Positions 23,336-57,989 of a stretch of DNA of 64,000 nt are shown piece after piece; the stretch's first letter is position 1; every line of letters begins with the position of its first letter. The position numbers and the translations under genes were made by a program. Below the pieces are notes generated by a model. That model was not told where the DNA came from. It made no database searches and worked only from the letters and a program-made list of their open reading frames with translations. Source of the DNA: an uncultured Bacteroidota bacterium (GTDB lineage Bacteria; Bacteroidota; Bacteroidia; Flavobacteriales; Flavobacteriaceae); assembly GCA_902523635.1 (NCBI GenBank), contig CABZAE010000003.1, forward strand, positions 1 through 64,000. Reading direction: 5' to 3'.

Positions 23336-25114
23336 ATGGATTTAAAGAAATTAATAGAGGAAAATATTTGTAATTATATTTTTTCGAATTACGAACTAAA
23401 AGTTTCTTATATCGAAATTCAAAGTACTCGTAAAGAATACAAAGGAGACATTACAGTAGTAATTTTTCCACTAATCAAACTTCTTAAAAAATCTCCTTTG
23501 GACCTAGGTTCAGAAATTGGAGACCACCTTTTAAGTGAAATAAAATTAATTGAAAATTACAATGTGATTCACGGTTTTTTGAATTTAAACATTTCGAACA
23601 ATTACTACATACAACTTTTAAAAAAGGTTATTTCTCAAAAAAAATTCGGTATCTCAGAACCCAATGAGGATAGTCCATTATATTTGGTCGAATTTTCATC
23701 TCCAAACACCAATAAGCCATTACATTTAGGTCACATAAGAAATATTCTTTTAGGTTCTGCTATTTCCAATATTTTGGAAGCTAATGGAAAAAAAGTAGTT
23801 AGGACTCAAATAATTAATGATAGGGGAATTCATATATGTAAATCAATAGTTGCTTGGCAAAATTTTGCTAAGAACGATACTCCTGATATTACACACACCA
23901 AAGGGGACCACTTTGTTGGGAAATATTATGTGCTTTTCGAAAAAATATACAGAGAACAGGTTTCAGATCTCATAAAGGATGGTTATGATAAAAAATATGC
24001 TGAAAAAAATGCATCCATATTTCAAGATGCTCAAAATTTACTTTTAAAATGGGAATCTGGAGATAAGGAAGTTATTAAACTTTGGAAGAAAATGAATAAT
24101 TGGGTTTACAGAGGTTTTCAACAAACTTACAGCGAGTTAAATGTTCATTTTGATTCTAATTATTATGAAAGTAAAACTTATTTAACTGGAAAAAAAGTTG
24201 TTGAGAAAGGGGTTGCTGATAAAATTTTTTCAAAAAAATCAGATGGTTCTGTTTGGGTGGATTTGAGTGAAGATGGTTTGGACGAAAAGATATTGCTTAG
24301 GTCTGATGGGACATCAGTATACATAACTCAAGATATAGGAACTGCTATTTTAAGATATGAAAACAATCCAGAAATGAAAGGTGTTATTTACACTGTAGGT
24401 AGTGAACAGGATTATCATTTTAGAGTTCTTTTTAAAATCTTAGAAAAATTAAAATATTCGTGGTCCCATAATTTACATCACCTAAGCTATGGAATGGTAG
24501 ATCTACCCTCTGGAAAAATGAAAAGTAGGGAGGGTACAGTTGTGGATGCCGATGAGATTATTGATGAAATGAAATCCAGAGCCTCTAATATTTCTGATGA
24601 GTTAGGAAAAATTCAAGATTTTACATTAAATGAGAAAGATCAATTAAATAAAATGATAGGGATGGGAGCTTTGAAATATTTTATATTAAAAGTCGATTCA
24701 AAAAAAAGAATTTTATTTAACCCTGATGAATCGATTGATTTTAATGGAAATACAGGGCCTTTTATTCAATATACTCATGCTAGGATTCAATCTCTTTTAA
24801 AGAAGGGAGGTGAATTATCCGACAACTTAAATGATTCTTTAATTATAAACGTTAAAGAAAAACAAATAATTAAAAAAGTTTTAGAATTCCCATCTGTAAT
24901 AAAAAATGCTGGAAGTAATTTAAGTCCTGCTACCATTATCAATTATACATATGATTTAGTTAAAGACTATAATTCTTATTATCAGTCCGTAAGTATCTTA
25001 AAAATAAGTGATAAGGAAATGAAAAATTTTCGGATGAGTTTATCATTTATGGTTGCGCGAATAATCAGAAATTCTATGAATCTTGTTGGTATTGATGTTC
25101 CCGAAAAGATGTAA
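23336..25114 (+). CDS. argS: Arginyl-tRNA synthetase
   Basis: Class I enzyme charging tRNA-Arg. It is 592 residues. The HIGH motif appears as SSPNTNKPLHLGHIRNILLG, and the KMSKS-equivalent as GKMKSREGTV. LSYGMVDLPSG and YFILKVDSKKRILFNPDESIDFNGNTGPFIQYTHARIQSLL lead into the C-terminal DALR anticodon-binding domain. The start ATG follows an AT-rich leader. A strong terminator lies directly after the stop codon. Confidence 0.97.
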   Translation: MDLKKLIEENICNYIFSNYELKVSYIEIQSTRKEYKGDITVVIFPLIKLLKKSPLDLGSEIGDHLLSEIKLIENYNVIHGFLNLNISNNYYIQLLKKVISQKKFGISEPNEDSPLYLVEFSSPNTNKPLHLGHIRNILLGSAISNILEANGKKVVRTQIINDRGIHICKSIVAWQNFAKNDTPDITHTKGDHFVGKYYVLFEKIYREQVSDLIKDGYDKKYAEKNASIFQDAQNLLLKWESGDKEVIKLWKKMNNWVYRGFQQTYSELNVHFDSNYYESKTYLTGKKVVEKGVADKIFSKKSDGSVWVDLSEDGLDEKILLRSDGTSVYITQDIGTAILRYENNPEMKGVIYTVGSEQDYHFRVLFKILEKLKYSWSHNLHHLSYGMVDLPSGKMKSREGTVVDADEIIDEMKSRASNISDELGKIQDFTLNEKDQLNKMIGMGALKYFILKVDSKKRILFNPDESIDFNGNTGPFIQYTHARIQSLLKKGGELSDNLNDSLIINVKEKQIIKKVLEFPSVIKNAGSNLSPATIINYTYDLVKDYNSYYQSVSILKISDKEMKNFRMSLSFMVARIIRNSMNLVGIDVPEKM

Positions 25115-25142
25115 AAAAAAACCGCCGTAAAGGCGGTTTTTA
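25113..25142. terminator. Bidirectional intrinsic terminator, argS / proteorhodopsin
   Basis: An A-run, then CCGCC, loop GTAAA, GGCGG and a T-run. The A- and T-runs extend the stem and supply a U-tract in either direction. It sits between the convergent ends of argS and the proteorhodopsin gene, so it can end both transcripts. Confidence 0.93.
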
Positions 25143-25163
25143 TTTGAATGAAAAAAGACTCTG

Positions 25164-35369: not shown

Positions 35370-37181
35370 CTAAAAACAATAATTATTTTCAGTTTTCAAT
35401 TTATCAGCAATTGTATTTCTTAAGCCTATAACATTAGGAAATTCATAATATTTTGTAAACCTTTTTAGACCCATTAGTAGACCCTTTTGTTCATCTCCGT
35501 CTGTAAAAGATACGATGACTTCTTTCCCTTTCATTTGAACAATTTCCACGGCTTTATAAACATATAATTTTGTCATGGCTATTTGTCCATCCTGCGATTC
35601 ATTGCCAAATCGTTTACAATTTTTTTCAGTCCTCAGTAAAGCTGATTCACACATATAAATTTCTATCAAAATATCGGAAACACCCATTAAAACTTGTTGA
35701 TGTTTTTCTAATTCTGTTCCAAATTTTTTAATTCCTGTTCCTGCCAACATTAAGAATACTTTTTTCAAATTGCTAATAATCATTTTCTCTTGTGATAAAA
35801 GTTCAGAAAAATCCGGAATTTCAAATGAAGGTATACCCTTTAATTCTTCTTCAACTTTTGTAGCTGGATTTATAAAATCTATATGACCCTTCATCGCTTT
35901 TTTAATCAACATACCGACACTAAGCATTCTATTTATTTCGTTAGTTCCCTCGTATATTCGAGCTATTCTTGCATCCCTCCAAGCAGATTCCATTGGAGTA
36001 TCTGCAGAAAATCCCATTCCTCCAAAAATTTGTATTCCTTCATCAGATGTATTTTGACAGTCTTCAGAAACAGCTACTTTTAGGATTGAGCACTCAACGA
36101 CATATTCTTCAACCCCTTTCAATTCTGCTTCTTGCAAAGTATTTCCACTTTTATGCCTCATTTCAATTCTATCCTCAATATCCTTAGACGCTCTATAGCA
36201 AGCAGATTCACCAACATATGCATCGGTTGCCATTTGTGCGATTTTCTGTTTTATAGCTTCAAAATCAATAATTTTAGTTTTGAACTGTACTCTTTCATTT
36301 GCGTATTGTACACTAAGTTTGGTGACTCTTTTCATAGCATCAATACATGCAACAGCAAGTTTGATTCTACCAACATTAAGTGAGTTCATTGCAATTTTAA
36401 AACCATTTCCTCTTTCTGAGAGCATGTTTTCAATTGGTACTTTGGTATCATTAAAGAAAACCTGCCTAGTTGAGGATGAGTGAATACCTAATTTATTTTC
36501 CTCCTCACCTAGGGTAATTCCATTATTTGGATCATTTGGAACAATAAAGCCAGTTATGTTTTTATCATCTTCGATTCTTGCAAAAACAATAAAAATATTT
36601 GCAAATCCAGCATTAGAAATCCACATTTTTTGACCTGAAATCAAGTAGTTTTTTCCATCATTTGATAGAACTGCCTTGGTTTTTCCACTATTTGCATCCG
36701 AGCCTGCAGTTGGTTCTGTCAAACAATATGCACCGAAATGTTCACCTGAGGATAATTTTGGAACATATTTTTTCTTTTGATCTTCGGTACCATAAAGCAC
36801 AATGGGCATTGTTCCAATACCTGTGTGTGCTCCAAATGCCGTGGATAACGATCCTGTACAACCTGAAATGTACTCACAAACAAGCATTGTAGAAACAAAA
36901 CCCATACCTAGACCTCCGTATTCTTCAGGAACAGCAACGCCTAAAAAGCCCAACTCACCTGCTTTTCTCATTACATCTTCAGTTAGTTTGAAATCTTTCT
37001 TTTCGAAACGTTCCTTATTAGGCCAAACTTCCTTTTCAATGAAATCTATAACTGCCTGTTTCATCATTTTTTGTTCCTCTGTAAAATCTTCAGGTGTAAA
37101 AACGTTTTGGCAATCTGTTTCCTTTATTATAAATTCACCACCTCTTGTGATTTCTTGTTTTTTTTCAATTATTTCTTCCAT
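35370..37181 (-). CDS. fadE: Acyl-CoA dehydrogenase
   Basis: FAD enzyme for the first step of beta-oxidation. It is 603 residues, the long form with an extra C-terminal helical domain, like Bacillus FadE and mitochondrial VLCAD. It shows GFLGVAVPEEYGGLGMGFVS, YCLTEPTAGSDANSGKTKAVL, KMWISNAGFANIFIVFAR and DARIARIYEGTNEINRMLS, in which the Glu of YEGTNE is the likely catalytic base. It is the last gene of marR-fadN-fadA-fadE, 14 bases after fadA. The electron-acceptor ETF genes are not in the window. Confidence 0.95.
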   Translation of the reverse strand: MEEIIEKKQEITRGGEFIIKETDCQNVFTPEDFTEEQKMMKQAVIDFIEKEVWPNKERFEKKDFKLTEDVMRKAGELGFLGVAVPEEYGGLGMGFVSTMLVCEYISGCTGSLSTAFGAHTGIGTMPIVLYGTEDQKKKYVPKLSSGEHFGAYCLTEPTAGSDANSGKTKAVLSNDGKNYLISGQKMWISNAGFANIFIVFARIEDDKNITGFIVPNDPNNGITLGEEENKLGIHSSSTRQVFFNDTKVPIENMLSERGNGFKIAMNSLNVGRIKLAVACIDAMKRVTKLSVQYANERVQFKTKIIDFEAIKQKIAQMATDAYVGESACYRASKDIEDRIEMRHKSGNTLQEAELKGVEEYVVECSILKVAVSEDCQNTSDEGIQIFGGMGFSADTPMESAWRDARIARIYEGTNEINRMLSVGMLIKKAMKGHIDFINPATKVEEELKGIPSFEIPDFSELLSQEKMIISNLKKVFLMLAGTGIKKFGTELEKHQQVLMGVSDILIEIYMCESALLRTEKNCKRFGNESQDGQIAMTKLYVYKAVEIVQMKGKEVIVSFTDGDEQKGLLMGLKRFTKYYEFPNVIGLRNTIADKLKTENNYCF

Positions 37182-37195
37182 TTTAAACAGTTTTA

Positions 37196-38380
37196 TTAAT
37201 TCAAAAATTCAAAAATACCTGCAGCTCCTTGACCCGTCCCCACACACATAGTAACCATTCCGAACTTAGATTTCCTAATTCTCATTTCATCGAAAATTTG
37301 AACAGATAATTTAGCGCCGGTACATCCGAGCGGATGACCTAGAGCAATAGCTCCACCATTAACGTTGACGATTTCCTTATTTAAACCAAGTTCTTTTATC
37401 ACAGCCAACGATTGTGATGAAAATGCTTCATTAAGTTCAATAAGATCAATATCGTTGATATTAAGATTTGATTGTTCTAAAACTTTCGGAATCGCCTTTA
37501 CAGGTCCAATTCCCATTATTTTTGGTGGGACTCCAGCGACTGCATAGTTCACAAATTTTGCAATTGGGTTAATATTAAGTTCTTTAACCATATCCTCACT
37601 CATGATTGTTACAAAAGCTGCTCCATCACTCATTTGTGAGGAGTTTCCAGCCGTAACACTTCCATTTTGAGCAAAAACTGGCTTCAATTTATTTAACACC
37701 TCAACACTTGTATCGTGTCTAGGGCCCTCATCTTTTTGAACCAAGTATTTTTTTGAGGATTTTACTCCTGCATCGTTAATAAATGTTTCTGAAATTTCTA
37801 TTGGAACGATTGAAGATTCAAATTTATTTTCAGAAATAGCTTTAATTGCTTTTTGGTGAGATTCATATGCAAATTTATCTTGATCTTCTCTTGAAATTGA
37901 GAAATCATTAGCAACTTGCTCTGCAGTCAATCCCATTCCCCAATAATAATCCTCATTTCCTTGCTTCGCGTTTTTGTATCCTGGAACTGGTCTATAACCT
38001 CCCATTGGAATAAAACTCATACTTTCAACTCCACCTGCAATTACGCAATGAGCCATGCCTGATTTGATTTTTGCCGCTGCAAGTGCAATGGTCTCTAAAC
38101 CAGATGCACAATATCTGTTGATTGTAACTCCAGGCACATCGTCAATTCCAAGACCCATTAATGAAATTAATCTACCAATATTTAATCCCTGCTCAGCTTC
38201 AGGCATCGCATTGCCAACTATAACATCATCAATTCTCTTTTTATCCAAATTGGGGATATCATTGATCATGTAATTAATTGTTTGTGCAGCTAATTCATCA
38301 GGTCTTTTAAATCTAAAAAGTCCTCTCGGAGCTTTACCAACAGCTGTGCGGTATCCTTTAACTATATATGCTTCGTTCAT
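37196..38380 (-). CDS. fadA: Acetyl-CoA C-acyltransferase (3-ketoacyl-CoA thiolase)
   Basis: Thiolytic last step of beta-oxidation. It is 394 residues. The nucleophilic Cys is in NRYCASGLETIALAAA; GGVESMS and NEAFSSQSLAV follow; the catalytic His lies in NGGAIALGHPLGCTGAK and the second Cys in MVTMCVGTGQGAAGIFE. It begins 4 bases after fadN ends. An acetyl-CoA acetyltransferase is the alternative reading, but the operon context favours the beta-oxidation thiolase. Confidence 0.95.
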   Translation of the reverse strand: MNEAYIVKGYRTAVGKAPRGLFRFKRPDELAAQTINYMINDIPNLDKKRIDDVIVGNAMPEAEQGLNIGRLISLMGLGIDDVPGVTINRYCASGLETIALAAAKIKSGMAHCVIAGGVESMSFIPMGGYRPVPGYKNAKQGNEDYYWGMGLTAEQVANDFSISREDQDKFAYESHQKAIKAISENKFESSIVPIEISETFINDAGVKSSKKYLVQKDEGPRHDTSVEVLNKLKPVFAQNGSVTAGNSSQMSDGAAFVTIMSEDMVKELNINPIAKFVNYAVAGVPPKIMGIGPVKAIPKVLEQSNLNINDIDLIELNEAFSSQSLAVIKELGLNKEIVNVNGGAIALGHPLGCTGAKLSVQIFDEMRIRKSKFGMVTMCVGTGQGAAGIFEFLN

Positions 38381-38384
38381 ATTA

Positions 38385-40790
38385 TTAATTTCTTAGTGGT
38401 TTACCTGTTTTAAGAATATGCTCAATTCGTTCTAGAGTTTTTCTTTCTGAACATAGAGATAAAAATGCTTCTCTTTCCAAATCTAATATATACTGATCGT
38501 TAACAAACGTTGGTTCAGAAAGATCTCCTCCGGCCATAACATAAGCCAATTTATTAGCAATTTTTTTATCATGTTCGGAAATGTAATTTGCTGTTTTCAT
38601 AGAGTCTGTACCTACTAAAAACATTCCAAGTGCCTGTTTTCCTAAAACCTTAATATTTTTTTCTCTAATAGGGGGAATGTATCCGCTTTCAGAGAGAAGA
38701 ATTGCGTGTTTTTTTGCAACTGCAATCTGTGAGTTTTTATTCATTAGAACCAAATCTTTTGCTTTTTTAAGCAAACCAAAATCGAACGCTTCATACGCTG
38801 AAGTTGAAGTTTTGGCCATTCCGATAGTTAAAAAATATTCTTGCATCACATTTAGCTCAACATCATTTTTATTAAAATTTTCGGCTGCTCTCAGGGTCAT
38901 TTCTTTACAACCTCCACCACCTGGAATTAATCCAGCCCCCATCTCAACTAAACCAATATAGGTCTCAGGATTTACTATTGCTTTGTCACAATGCATTACA
39001 AGTTCGCAACCCCCACCAAGTGTTAGACCGTGAGGTGCAGCTATTACAGGAATGTTTGAAAACCTGAGCTTCATCATGGTATCTTGAAATATTTTAATAG
39101 CCATGTTGATTTCATCGTATTCTTGTTCAACTGACATCATGAAAATCATTCCCAAATTTGCCCCAGCAGAAAAGTGAGCTCCTTCATTTCCAATAACCAG
39201 TCCACGGAAATTTTTCTCACCTATTTCTAATGATTTATTTATACCTTGAAGAACACCCTCACCGATAGTATTCATTTTTGACCTAAATTCTAAATTAATT
39301 ACTCCATCACCGATATCAGTTATTATGGAATCTTTATTTTCCCAAATTGTTTTGTTTTCATGTAGATTTTTAAGAATAATGAAGGATTCGTAACCAGGTT
39401 TGATTTTAAATTTACAGGTATTCAAATCATAATACGCAGAATTGCCATTCTCAACAGAGTAAAATTTATCTACTCCATTTTGAATCATTTTATTTATCCA
39501 ACCCGTTGGTTTATAACCTAACGATTTAATCAATTCAACACCTTGTTTTAATCCAATAGAATTCCATACCTCAAATGGTCCATATTGCCAGCCATATCCA
39601 GCTTTCAAAGCATCGTCAATTTTGTAAATGTCATCACATATTTCTGGAACTCTGTTTTGGATATATGCAAACAAAGAACCAAAATTTCGTCTGTAGAATT
39701 CTCCAGCTTTATCTTTTCCATTGACTAAGACAGAGAATCTTTCAGAAACATCCTCTATTTTTTTTGCAAAACCCATGGTTTCAAAGAGCACTTTTTTTGT
39801 TGATTTATATTCAAGAGTTCTAAGGTCCAGTGAAAGTATTTCAGATTTTCCATCGGAGTTTTTTATTCTTTTATAAAATCCACTTCCAGTTTTTGAGCCT
39901 AGTAGATTTTTTTTGACCATTTGGTCAATATACTCTGGCATTTTAAAAATATTTCTAAACTCATCATTGGGACAGTTTTCATAAATACCTTTTGCAACAT
40001 TAATTGTTGTATCAAGCCCCACAATATCACTTGTTCTAAAAGTTGCAGATTTTGGGTTTCCTATTATTGGTCCGGTAAGTTTATCAATTTCTTCAACAGT
40101 GAGTTCTAATTCTTCAACCATATTTAAAATATTAGACATCCCAAACATTCCAATTCTGTTTCCAATAAAACCAGGTGTGTCTTTTGCCAAAATCGAAACT
40201 TTACCTAAAAATCGTTGCCCAAAATCGATTAAAAAATCTATGACATCAGAATCACAATCTGGACCCGGAATAATTTCAAAAAGTTTTAAATATCTTGGAG
40301 GGTTAAAAAAATGAGTGACTGCAAAGTGTTTTCTAAAATCTTCACTACGATTTTCATTCATAAATTTAATTGGTATTCCTGACGTATTGGAAGTAACCAG
40401 AGATCCTTTTTTTCTGTGTTTTTCAATTTGATCAAAAACAATTTTTTTAATTTCGATTTTTTCTGTAACGACTTCTATTATCCAATCACAATTTGAAATG
40501 AGAGGAAGATCATCATTGAGATTACCCAATTTTATTCTGTCTATGAATTTTTTGTTGTAGATCGGAGATGGCTTTGATTTGACACATCGATCAAACATTT
40601 CTCTTACGATTCTATTTTTTACTTTCTTATCAGAAAGCGTTAGACCCAATTTTTTTTCTTTATCATTTATTTTACTCGGCGTTATGTCAAGAAGTAAAAC
40701 CTTAATCCCAATGTTGGCGAAATGACATGCGATTCCAGAACCCATAATTCCTGAGCCAATTACAGCAACTTCTTTTATTGTTCTATTCAT
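38385..40790 (-). CDS. fadN: 3-Hydroxyacyl-CoA dehydrogenase / enoyl-CoA hydratase fusion
   Basis: Two-domain beta-oxidation enzyme of 801 residues. The NAD-binding dehydrogenase is N-terminal (VAVIGSGIMGSGIACHFANIGIKVLLLD, then VTSNTSGIPI, HFFNPPRYLKLFEIIPG, KDTPGFIGNRIGMF). The crotonase domain is C-terminal, with AHFSAGANLGM, APHGLTLGGGCELVMHCDKAI and EMGAGLIPGGGGCKEM. This order matches Bacillus FadN and is the reverse of E. coli FadB. It lies 9 bases after marR, and the whole cluster parallels Bacillus fadNAE with a local repressor in front. Confidence 0.95.
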   Translation of the reverse strand: MNRTIKEVAVIGSGIMGSGIACHFANIGIKVLLLDITPSKINDKEKKLGLTLSDKKVKNRIVREMFDRCVKSKPSPIYNKKFIDRIKLGNLNDDLPLISNCDWIIEVVTEKIEIKKIVFDQIEKHRKKGSLVTSNTSGIPIKFMNENRSEDFRKHFAVTHFFNPPRYLKLFEIIPGPDCDSDVIDFLIDFGQRFLGKVSILAKDTPGFIGNRIGMFGMSNILNMVEELELTVEEIDKLTGPIIGNPKSATFRTSDIVGLDTTINVAKGIYENCPNDEFRNIFKMPEYIDQMVKKNLLGSKTGSGFYKRIKNSDGKSEILSLDLRTLEYKSTKKVLFETMGFAKKIEDVSERFSVLVNGKDKAGEFYRRNFGSLFAYIQNRVPEICDDIYKIDDALKAGYGWQYGPFEVWNSIGLKQGVELIKSLGYKPTGWINKMIQNGVDKFYSVENGNSAYYDLNTCKFKIKPGYESFIILKNLHENKTIWENKDSIITDIGDGVINLEFRSKMNTIGEGVLQGINKSLEIGEKNFRGLVIGNEGAHFSAGANLGMIFMMSVEQEYDEINMAIKIFQDTMMKLRFSNIPVIAAPHGLTLGGGCELVMHCDKAIVNPETYIGLVEMGAGLIPGGGGCKEMTLRAAENFNKNDVELNVMQEYFLTIGMAKTSTSAYEAFDFGLLKKAKDLVLMNKNSQIAVAKKHAILLSESGYIPPIREKNIKVLGKQALGMFLVGTDSMKTANYISEHDKKIANKLAYVMAGGDLSEPTFVNDQYILDLEREAFLSLCSERKTLERIEHILKTGKPLRN

Positions 40791-41244: not shown

Positions 41245-41252
41245 CAAATTTA
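41245..41252 (-). promoter_or_regulatory. marR-fad operon -7 box TAAATTTG
   Basis: Exact TAnnTTTG match on the minus strand, followed by ATTG and then the marR ATG. It begins one base after the palindrome, so a repressor dimer on the palindrome would occupy the upstream promoter DNA. Confidence 0.65.
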
Positions 41253-41253
41253 A

Positions 41254-41285
41254 ATAAAAATACTATGCGCGCATAGTATTTTTAT
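41254..41285. promoter_or_regulatory. 32-bp perfect palindrome, MarR operator candidate
   Basis: Every base from 41254 to 41285 pairs with its mirror partner around TACTATGCGCGCATAGTA, with AT-rich outer arms. Two-fold symmetry is what a MarR dimer recognises, and the site directly abuts the marR -7 box. It also begins 8 bases after the purL stop on the same strand. As RNA the GC core plus flanking A and U runs could fold into an intrinsic terminator for purL. Confidence 0.85.
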
Positions 41286-41293
41286 AAATTTTT

Positions 41294-44200
41294 TTAAAAT
41301 TTAGATAACCATTTATGAGCATTTTCAAATGCAGTAACCCAAGGGGAAAGCTTATCTTTTCTTTTACTTGGATAATGAGGCCAGTTCCATGGAAAAGTTG
41401 ACCTTTCTAGATGAGGCATCATAGCGATATGTCTTCCATTTTCACTACCAATTATAGCTGTGTTATAATCTGATCCATTTGGATTGGCCGGGTATTCTTC
41501 ATAACCATATTTTCCGATTATATTGTATTCGCTTTCACATAATGGTAGACTGAATTTCCCCTCACCATGGGCACTCCAAATGCCGAGCTTCAACCCACCC
41601 ATATTTTTAAACATTATGGATTCATTGTTTTGAATTTCAACGGATGTGAAAATACATTCAAATTTTTTGGAATCATTATGTTCCATGGTAGGTTTTTTTA
41701 CATGTTCTGGATGCAATAACCCAAGCTCAATGAACAATTGACATCCATTACAAACACCTAACGATAAAGTGTCTTTTTTTGAGAAAAAACTCATGAGACT
41801 TTTTTTGGCTTTTTCATTGTAAATAAATGAACCAGCCCAACCTTTTGCTGAACCTAACACGTCTGAGTTTGAAAAACCACCAACTGCAACGATGAAATGA
41901 ATGTTTTCAAGATTTTCTCTTCCAGAAATTAAGTCGGACATATGAATATCTTTGACGTTAAAACCTGCTAAGTCCATTACATAAGCCATTTCTCTTTCTG
42001 AATTACTTCCCTTATCTCTTATTATAGCAGCATTTATTTTTTTTTGATTTGATGTTGATAGATTACCACTAAAATTTTCAGGGAAATTAAAGACAAGAGG
42101 TTGTTTTTTAAAGTTTTCAAACCTTTCTTTAGCTTTTGCTATACCACTTTGGTGAATATCCATCAAATATGATTTCTTAAACCATAAATCCCTATATTTT
42201 TCGACGCATAAATTAAGTTGATCTCTATTGTTTTTTATTTTTAAGTTTCCAGTTCTATCAACTTTACCAATTTTAAAAAAATTAATTTTTTTCTCTCTTA
42301 ATATCTTTTCAATAGTTCTTTTTCCTTGAAAAACTATTGCTGGATTCTCGCAAAAAAGTAAATCGACAGTTTTTTGATCACCTATATCACTTAAATCTAT
42401 GTCTGCACCTAAACCGTTTTCTGAGAAACATAATTCAAGTAATGTAGTAATCAAACCGCCAGAACTAACATCATGACCTGAGATAATAAAGTTGCTTTTT
42501 ATTAGGCCTTGAAAAATATTGAATGCCTCAGCAAAGTATTTAGAATCTTTTATATCTGGACAACTGTTTCCAACTTCGTCGAGAGTTTGAGCTAACGCTG
42601 AACCACCAATATCATGGGACGATTTTGAAAAGTCAATGTAATAAATACTATCGTTACAATATTTAAACACTGGCTCAACAACCTTATTTATATTACTACA
42701 ATTAGCTGTAGCAGAAATTATAACTGTACCAGGTGCTAGCACATCAACGTCATTATATCTTTGTTTCATTGATAGTGAATCTTTTCCTGTTGGAATGTTA
42801 ATTCCAAGATCAATCGCAAAATTGGAGCAAGATTCTACAGCTTCATACAATCTTGCATCTTCGCCAGGATTATTACACGGCCACATCCAATTTGCTGATA
42901 GAGATATGGACTTAATCCCATTATTTAGAGGAGCCCAAATTATGTTAGTTAATGCCTTGGCAATAGCAACCCTTGAACCTGCAGATGGATCTATTAACGC
43001 AATTACAGGTGCATGTCCGATTGATGTAGCAACTCCGAATGGATTTTTGAAGTCCAAAGCCATAACTCCACAATTATTTAGAGGTAATTGTAATTGACCA
43101 ACACACTGTTGTTTAGCTACTTTGCCCGTTACACATCTATCTACTTTGTTAGTTAGCCAATCTTTACAGGCGACTGATTCGAGGCTAAGAACATTCTTTA
43201 AATATTTTTCAAATAAATTAAAGTCACATTTTATATTTGAAAATTTAGATTTTAGACTTATATCACTCATCATTGTCTTTGGTGAATTACCAAAAAAATC
43301 AGAAAGTTCTAGATTTATTGGCATCTCATTACTTGATTGAGATTTTATAATAAATTTCTTATCACCTGAGATTTTACCGACTTTGTAGCATGGGCATTTT
43401 TCTCGATTTGCAATTTTTTTAAGCTTTTTGAAGTTTTTTTCAGAAATTATTAGACCCATCCTTTCTTGCGACTCATTACCAATAATTTCTTTAAAAGACA
43501 GGGTGTCATCACCAATTGGTAATTCATCAATATCAACAATTCCTCCTGTCTCATCTACAAGTTCTGATAAACAGTTTAAATGCCCTCCAGCTCCGTGATC
43601 ATGAATTGAAATAATTGTATTCTCCTCAAATTCAACAAATGCTCTAATTGTATTTGCAACTCTTTTTTGCATTTCAGGATTTGATCTTTGTACAGCATTT
43701 AATTCAATTCCTGAACTATATTTTCCGGTGTCTGTTGAGGATACTGAGGCCCCACCCATACCAATTCTGTAATTATCACCCCCAAGTATTACAATTACAT
43801 CATCTTTTCTCGGAGTTTCTTTGATACTTTGATTAAATTTTCCAAATCCAATTCCACCAGCAAGCATAATTACTTTATCATATCCAAGTTTAACTTTCCC
43901 AGATTCATGTTCAAATGTTAATAATGATCCGCATATTAGTGGTTGACCAAATTTATTTCCGAAGTCTGATGCCCCGTTTGATGCTTTTATTAAAATATCA
44001 ATGGGGGATTGGTATAACCATTTTCTTTCTTTTTTAACCCAATTTTCATTACTATCTATTCTTGGGTATGGTGTCATGTATACTGCAGTACCAGCTAATG
44101 GAATCGATCCTTTACCGCCCGCAAGTCGATCTCTAATTTCTCCTCCCGAACCAGTAGCAGCTCCACTGAATGGTTCAACTGTTGTTGGGAAATTATGTGT

Positions 44201-44941
44201 TTCAGCTTTTAAAGATATGACTGAACTAAAAGTACTTTTTTTATAGTATGATGGCTCAGATGGATCAACAGGAGAAAACTGTTCAACATCAGGACCTTTA
44301 ATGAAAGCCACATTGTCTTTGTATGCAGATACAATTTCATTTTTATTCAACTTTGAAGTCTTTTTTATCAAATCAAAAAGAGAATGTTTCATTTTTTTAT
44401 TATCAATAATAAAGGTTCCATTGAATATTTTATGTCTACAGTGTTCAGAATTTACTTGAGAAAAGCCAAAAACTTCAGAGTCTGTAAGCTTCCTTTTAAG
44501 TTTTTTAGAAAGATTCTCCAAGTAGTTTATTTCGTCTACACTCAATGCCAAACCTTCTTTGGAATTATAAGTTGAAATATCTGATATTTCTTTGATAGAT
44601 TCAGGATTTATTGAAACGTTAAAAACATGTTGGTTAAGCTTACTGTAAACTTCATTTATCATAGGGTCATGCTTATTATGGTTTTTGTCAAATTCTGAGA
44701 ACATTTCAATCCTCTTAATCCCCTTTATGACCATGTTTTGTGTTATTTCAACAGCATTCGTGCTCCAAGGAGTTACCATTGATTTTCTAGGTCCAAGAAA
44801 AGTTCCTGAAATTTCAGTTTTACCTGTTAAAAAATTCGCATTGAACAACCACTCAAGTTTTTGAATGTCTTTTTGGTTTATTGTATTACTTGTATCAACA
44901 GTATAAATTAGATTTTGTTTGTCCTTGAAGAAAAAAACCAT
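41294..44941 (-). CDS. purL: Phosphoribosylformylglycinamidine synthase
   Basis: Large single-chain FGAM synthase of purine synthesis. It is 1215 residues. The N-terminal PurS-like part is followed by the FGAM synthetase domains (SEHCRHKIFNG, LKAETHNFPTTVEPFSGAATGSGGEIRD, GGGDNYRIGMGGAS-type loop, HDHGAGGHLNCLSELV, GHDVSSGGLITTLLE) and a C-terminal class-I glutaminase with SLGVCNGCQLFIELGLL and a His-Glu pair in MMPHLERSTFPWNW. It is monocistronic between rsmB-like and marR genes. A TAATTTTG box lies 19 bases upstream. Confidence 0.97.
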   Translation of the reverse strand: MVFFFKDKQNLIYTVDTSNTINQKDIQKLEWLFNANFLTGKTEISGTFLGPRKSMVTPWSTNAVEITQNMVIKGIKRIEMFSEFDKNHNKHDPMINEVYSKLNQHVFNVSINPESIKEISDISTYNSKEGLALSVDEINYLENLSKKLKRKLTDSEVFGFSQVNSEHCRHKIFNGTFIIDNKKMKHSLFDLIKKTSKLNKNEIVSAYKDNVAFIKGPDVEQFSPVDPSEPSYYKKSTFSSVISLKAETHNFPTTVEPFSGAATGSGGEIRDRLAGGKGSIPLAGTAVYMTPYPRIDSNENWVKKERKWLYQSPIDILIKASNGASDFGNKFGQPLICGSLLTFEHESGKVKLGYDKVIMLAGGIGFGKFNQSIKETPRKDDVIVILGGDNYRIGMGGASVSSTDTGKYSSGIELNAVQRSNPEMQKRVANTIRAFVEFEENTIISIHDHGAGGHLNCLSELVDETGGIVDIDELPIGDDTLSFKEIIGNESQERMGLIISEKNFKKLKKIANREKCPCYKVGKISGDKKFIIKSQSSNEMPINLELSDFFGNSPKTMMSDISLKSKFSNIKCDFNLFEKYLKNVLSLESVACKDWLTNKVDRCVTGKVAKQQCVGQLQLPLNNCGVMALDFKNPFGVATSIGHAPVIALIDPSAGSRVAIAKALTNIIWAPLNNGIKSISLSANWMWPCNNPGEDARLYEAVESCSNFAIDLGINIPTGKDSLSMKQRYNDVDVLAPGTVIISATANCSNINKVVEPVFKYCNDSIYYIDFSKSSHDIGGSALAQTLDEVGNSCPDIKDSKYFAEAFNIFQGLIKSNFIISGHDVSSGGLITTLLELCFSENGLGADIDLSDIGDQKTVDLLFCENPAIVFQGKRTIEKILREKKINFFKIGKVDRTGNLKIKNNRDQLNLCVEKYRDLWFKKSYLMDIHQSGIAKAKERFENFKKQPLVFNFPENFSGNLSTSNQKKINAAIIRDKGSNSEREMAYVMDLAGFNVKDIHMSDLISGRENLENIHFIVAVGGFSNSDVLGSAKGWAGSFIYNEKAKKSLMSFFSKKDTLSLGVCNGCQLFIELGLLHPEHVKKPTMEHNDSKKFECIFTSVEIQNNESIMFKNMGGLKLGIWSAHGEGKFSLPLCESEYNIIGKYGYEEYPANPNGSDYNTAIIGSENGRHIAMMPHLERSTFPWNWPHYPSKRKDKLSPWVTAFENAHKWLSKF

Positions 44942-57903: not shown

Positions 57904-57927
57904 GTGAATAAATTTTTAAAAAAATCT

Positions 57928-57959
57928 AGGTGTTACTTTTTCAGTAACACCTTTTTTTA
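57928..57959 (+). terminator. Intrinsic terminator of rpmH
   Basis: AGGTGTTACT pairs over ten bases with AGTAACACCT around a TTTTC loop, followed by seven T residues. It lies 24 bases after the rpmH stop and separates rpmH from carB. Confidence 0.95.
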
Positions 57960-57989
57960 TATATATTAATTAATCAAATAAATGTTTGT

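Follow-up and report, generated by a model that had tools for sequence, protein, structure and literature searches.

A 32-bp palindrome is very probably the operator of a MarR-type repressor of fatty-acid breakdown in Flavobacteriaceae

β-Oxidation genes are repressed by FadR in both Escherichia coli (a GntR-family protein) and Bacillus (a TetR-family protein), and acyl-CoA releases both repressors. The locus described here comes from an uncultured bacterium with a small genome, whose close named relatives are marine Flavobacteriaceae metagenome bins. The FadR systems share its proposed plan, with one repressor over fad and electron-transfer genes and a fatty-acid signal that is presumed here; the differences lie in the protein family (MarR), the operator sequence and the promoter, which is of the Bacteroidota type with −33 and −7 elements. 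Among MarR proteins, SlyA and RovA have the same fold as the regulator at this locus (TM 0.82-0.83 to the DNA complexes 3q5f and 4aij), and the SlyA site, TTAGCAAGCTAA, has the same xxxGC-NN-GCxxx plan as the palindrome core; however, the half-site is TTAGC there and TATGC here, sequence identity is only ~22%, and SlyA and RovA are virulence or global regulators rather than catabolic ones. CouR (p-coumaroyl-CoA) and FabT (fatty-acid synthesis), with fold matches to 5cyv and 6jbx, are likewise MarR proteins tied to CoA or acyl-carrier thioesters and control catabolic or lipid genes, but they serve other pathways through other operators, and the ligand of the present MarR is presumed. A MarR-controlled catabolic regulon is of a known kind, while this one is apparently undescribed in the open-licence literature, where we found neither the operator sequence nor a MarR regulator of flavobacterial β-oxidation.

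The palindrome consists of two directly abutting 16-bp arms (41254-41269 and 41270-41285; spacer 0) that are 100% complementary, reading ATAAAAATACTATGCG and then CGCATAGTATTTTTAT with the symmetry centre between them. No other perfect palindrome in the window is as long (Table 1), and the next-longest have 9-bp arms. About 1 × 10−4 perfect palindromes of 32 bp would be expected by chance per 64 kb at 32% G+C, and the longest arm in 60 windows simulated with a first-order Markov model was 13 bp, bearing out the original prediction of a symmetry beyond chance. On the minus strand, the order of elements is the purL stop, 8 bases, the palindrome, 1 base, TAAATTTG, 4 bases and the marR ATG. The predicted 8-base distance from the purL stop codon (41294-41296) therefore holds, as does the predicted abutment on the marR −7 box (41252-41245), from which a single base separates the palindrome. 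A G+C core had also been proposed for the RNA hairpin, but the CGCG forms its 4-nucleotide loop and the stem contains only two G-C pairs, so a terminator with a G+C core is not what the sequence encodes.

Table 1 Features of the marR-fad locus. Positions are those of the window, that is, the whole 64,000-nucleotide stretch of DNA that was analysed.
Feature	Position	Strand	Basis or remark
32-bp palindrome, putative operator with A/T arms	41254-41285	.	Arm complementarity, simulation
Putative operator TACTATGCGCGCATAGTA, 18 bp	41261-41278	.	Two more copies, ≤3 mismatches, in the genome: etfBA and etfD-like promoters
Invariant core TATGCNNGCATA	41264-41275	.	Kept at 44/47 and 78/80 marR loci
First half-site TATG, on the −33 position of the marR promoter	41272-41275	-	19-20 nt ahead of the −7 box in 75 of 78 named genomes
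−7 box TAAATTTG of the marR-fad promoter	41245-41252	-	Consensus TAnnTTTG
Predicted start of transcription, at or beside the A of the marR ATG	41240-41240	-	Inferred, 4-5 nt past the −7 box as in PMC6847099
marR, MarR-family winged-helix regulator, 146 aa	40800-41240	-	PF01047 E 1.7e-9; AlphaFold
fadB, 3-hydroxyacyl-CoA dehydrogenase / enoyl-CoA hydratase	38385-40790	-	Directly 3' of marR in 79/80 named genomes
fadA, thiolase	37196-38380	-	After fadB
Acyl-CoA dehydrogenase (FadE of Bacillus kind)	35370-37181	-	After fadA
purL, codirectional upstream neighbour, outside the regulon	41294-44941	-	Immediate adjacency found only in this genus

Drawing on the sequence itself and its conservation, on its tendency to occur together with MarR, on the genes that follow the sites and on promoter geometry, we conclude that a MarR-type repressor of fatty-acid breakdown very probably docks at the palindrome, which looks like an ordinary kind of gene switch; MarR binding, its repressing rather than activating effect and the identity of its ligand are inferred. 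More specifically, we have high confidence that it would serve as the autoregulatory operator of the adjacent MarR, with the same protein acting at etfBA and at an EtfD-like gene and being released by a fatty-acid signal. As expected of an autoregulated operator, the palindrome overlaps the regulator's own promoter and is conserved with it, and further copies precede functionally linked genes. The MarR protein exceeded the cut-off for the winged-helix domain (PF01047, 37.8 bits against 24.6), whereas none of the NCBIfam MarR equivalogs (SlyA, HpaR, OhrR and others) matched, the best reaching 40 bits against a cut-off of 120. Its AlphaFold model (pLDDT 91.5) superposed on DNA-bound SlyA, RovA and MepR with TM scores of 0.82-0.84, and on CouR and FabT with slightly lower ones.

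The geometry of the marR promoter is consistent with simple repression. The flavobacterial −7 box, TAnnTTTG, spans −12 to −5 (PMC9723704, PMC6847099), which places transcription initiation at or beside the marR ATG and makes a leaderless or nearly leaderless marR mRNA probable. Relative to this start, the operator spans approximately −38 to −21 and its core approximately −35 to −24. The first TATG lies 19-20 nucleotides ahead of TAnnTTTG in 75 of the 78 named genomes with a marR operator, which puts this half-site on the position of the −33 TTTG element of Bacteroidota promoters (PMC2483708), and a bound MarR dimer should therefore block RNA polymerase. At the etfB site, the spacing to the −7 box is mostly 28, about 9 bp (about one helical turn) farther upstream than at marR; the action of MarR there is less certain and could be weak repression or activation.

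The core is retained before marR at 44 of the 47 whole-genome loci drawn from 60 relatives and in 78 of the 80 named genomes, including those of Flavobacterium, Dokdonia, Winogradskyella, Leeuwenhoekiella and Kordia, and the operator was located before marR in Flavobacterium psychrophilum. Beyond these, the exact core precedes 10 of 16 more distant MarR genes, from other orders of the class. The sequence logo was built from 112 distinct operators chosen by having core TATGCNNGCATA, so its conservation counts at the core positions rest on that choice. Two tandem operators, 27-29 bp apart, precede marR at seven loci, a layout that hints at cooperative or stepwise repression in certain genera.

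A search of the surrounding genome, as assembled (1.21 Mb, 43 contigs, 62% complete; more sites may exist beyond the assembled part), recovered exactly three matches to TATGCNNGCATA, at marR-fad, etfBA and the EtfD-like gene, and zero matches to the reversed control of TATGCRYGCATA. The further sites that had been predicted near fatty-acid genes were found, both in this genome and in relatives from sea and soil. Weaker operators were also sought, and the 17 one-mismatch sites were rejected as candidates because every one lies within an open reading frame. The electron transfer flavoprotein encoded by etfB-etfA is the acceptor for acyl-CoA dehydrogenases. The gene behind the third site encodes an HdrC-type membrane Fe-S protein, and two genes farther on lies one for an HdrB-like CCG protein. 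This pair appears to resemble EtfD/FadF, an ETF:menaquinone oxidoreductase (PMC13083937): an HdrC-like Fe-S protein at a putative MarR site with an HdrB-like CCG protein downstream would fit an electron outlet for ETF, although the putative activity is here split between two genes. At this locus (C2:35675-40400), a 148-aa gene lies between the HdrC-like and HdrB-like genes, and an MlaD-like gene ends 22 bp before the operator. The etfBA operator (C17:8260-11277, site 1501-1518) lies between divergent etfB and pyruvate-dehydrogenase-beta-like genes, a layout kept in several other genera, and might also touch the latter gene.

Among relatives, the core precedes etfB in 28 of 30 cases and the EtfD-like gene in 7 of 30. 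Within the genus, all 22 genomes scanned contained sites and none contained the reversed control pattern; outside marR and etf, these sites lie before a second acyl-CoA dehydrogenase gene in 3 genomes and between enoyl-CoA hydratase and zinc-type oxidoreductase genes in 10 genomes. In larger genomes, sites precede genes for a long-chain acyl-CoA ligase (divergent from marR), a 2,4-dienoyl-CoA-reductase-like protein, FabH-like and nitronate-monooxygenase/FabK-like proteins and a TonB receptor, with some sites before genes without a clear fatty-acid role or within genes. In several genomes, the operator sits at the promoter of genes from a TonB-dependent receptor family, a candidate outer-membrane receptor for fatty acids or lipids.

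The original prediction had assigned the palindrome two roles. Its role as a MarR operator over the fad operon is strongly supported by comparative genomics (the counts at marR loci and the further sites above), whereas the evidence does not support an end to purL transcription, with read-through feeding the fad genes, as something that the element was designed for: orthologues of the operator occur without an adjacent purL. A dual use, the element serving as MarR operator in the DNA and as purL terminator once transcribed, would be compatible with the operator reading, and we regard it as possible but rather unlikely. The RNA would form a stable hairpin (−12.7 to −15 kcal/mol, z ~−4.3) followed by U, similar in energy to a hairpin elsewhere in the window (25105-25155; −14.5 to −16); the gap between purL and marR measures just 53 bp and shows no further terminator. 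The T-run after the core is also longer in this genus than in other genera (7.1 versus 5.5, P = 6 × 10−5 in a test that ignores phylogeny); within the genus, it likewise exceeds the run at etfB. Against this, the stem has just the two G-C pairs described above, and a terminator scan did not list the palindrome. Nor do arm length and hairpin energy at marR differ significantly, within the genus, from those at the etfB sites, which lie between divergent genes and so need no terminator (P = 0.21 and 0.15); a comparison with other genera had suggested that adjacency to purL selects for a longer hairpin, but this idea was set aside on the etfB result. The palindrome and its T-rich spacer are also kept where purL lies elsewhere (~2 kb upstream in several other genera), and the T-rich stretch follows the core at marR in all genera, fitting the AT-rich sequence near −18 that is a general flavobacterial promoter feature (PMC6847099). 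An intrinsic terminator should be tied to the gene that it ends, but this structure is present without adjacent purL and at etfB. Any termination of purL is possibly incidental or a secondary use and does not account for the palindrome's existence. A known RNA family was also rejected, Rfam giving no match near a gathering score. Two other hairpins in the window were noted: the one at 25105-25155, an A-tract/T-tract hairpin between convergent genes, is a good example of an ordinary bidirectional terminator, and a strong hairpin with T7 (57917-57963), ~27 bp before a 949-aa open reading frame (57990) in a divergent intergenic region, is a possible leader or attenuator.

Somewhat less probable, and also compatible with the operator reading, is that MarR bound to the palindrome forms a roadblock to polymerase arriving from purL, such that read-through into the fad genes would also be under MarR control. 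The codirectional purL gene 53 bp upstream and the lack of another clear terminator favour such a roadblock, but the immediate adjacency of purL was found only in this genus. A scenario joining both proposals, which we consider doubtful, is that gene loss between purL and marR in this streamlined genus made the operator two-level, with the DNA as the MarR operator and the RNA (or a MarR roadblock) as the end of purL, and with the fad genes drawing on either the leaderless promoter or regulated read-through out of purine synthesis.

The site might instead belong to another transcription factor, with MarR a bystander in the operon. Across 148 genomes of the order, the site occurred in 73 of the 90 genomes with this MarR (247 matches, compared with 23 for the control) and in 5 of the 58 without it (7 matches, compared with 6), a co-occurrence with a Fisher P of ~3 × 10−19 in a test that ignores relatedness and genome size. 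Such co-occurrence is a correlation, and sites also precede genes away from marR. Nevertheless, ownership by another factor is improbable: the site is kept at the promoter of marR in genomes from across a bacterial class, genomes without this MarR almost lack it, and its two-fold form over 12 bp is what one would expect a MarR dimer to bind. Counting against the operator reading, seventeen MarR genomes have no exact R-Y-centred core, and at least two of these carry TATGCTTGCATA instead. One genome in which a profile search detected no MarR has three exact sites; its congeners have MarR, which was either lost or missed in this genome. Finally, that the palindrome is mainly a purL terminator with marR nearby by accident is hardly credible, despite the stable hairpin 8 nucleotides past the purL stop, as the sequence-specific core persists ahead of both marR and etfB in genera whose upstream genes differ, and between divergent genes.

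Under the favoured operator reading, a MarR dimer lacking a fatty-acid signal would bind TACTATGCGCGCATAGTA and cover the stretch of the marR-fadB-fadA-acd promoter that includes −33, keeping RNA polymerase off by simple repression; binding of the signal to MarR would then release the operon. The ligand is most likely acyl-CoA, a guess from the neighbouring and controlled genes. The same MarR would act at etfBA and the EtfD-like electron-transfer gene, and acyl-CoA dehydrogenation and its electron path would therefore be switched together. In F. psychrophilum, β-oxidation genes are induced by fish mucus and plasma (PMC9723704), which fits the proposed regulon, although that study did not tie the induction to MarR.

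That a MarR repressor can control the catabolic operon to which it belongs is already well known as a principle. What the operator TATGCNNGCATA on the −33 position and its gene set would add is a specific, testable fatty-acid-degradation regulon over much of the class Bacteroidia, bacteria that abound in marine and soil habitats and whose transcription factors have received little study, and one that tells experimenters what protein to delete and at which promoters to look.
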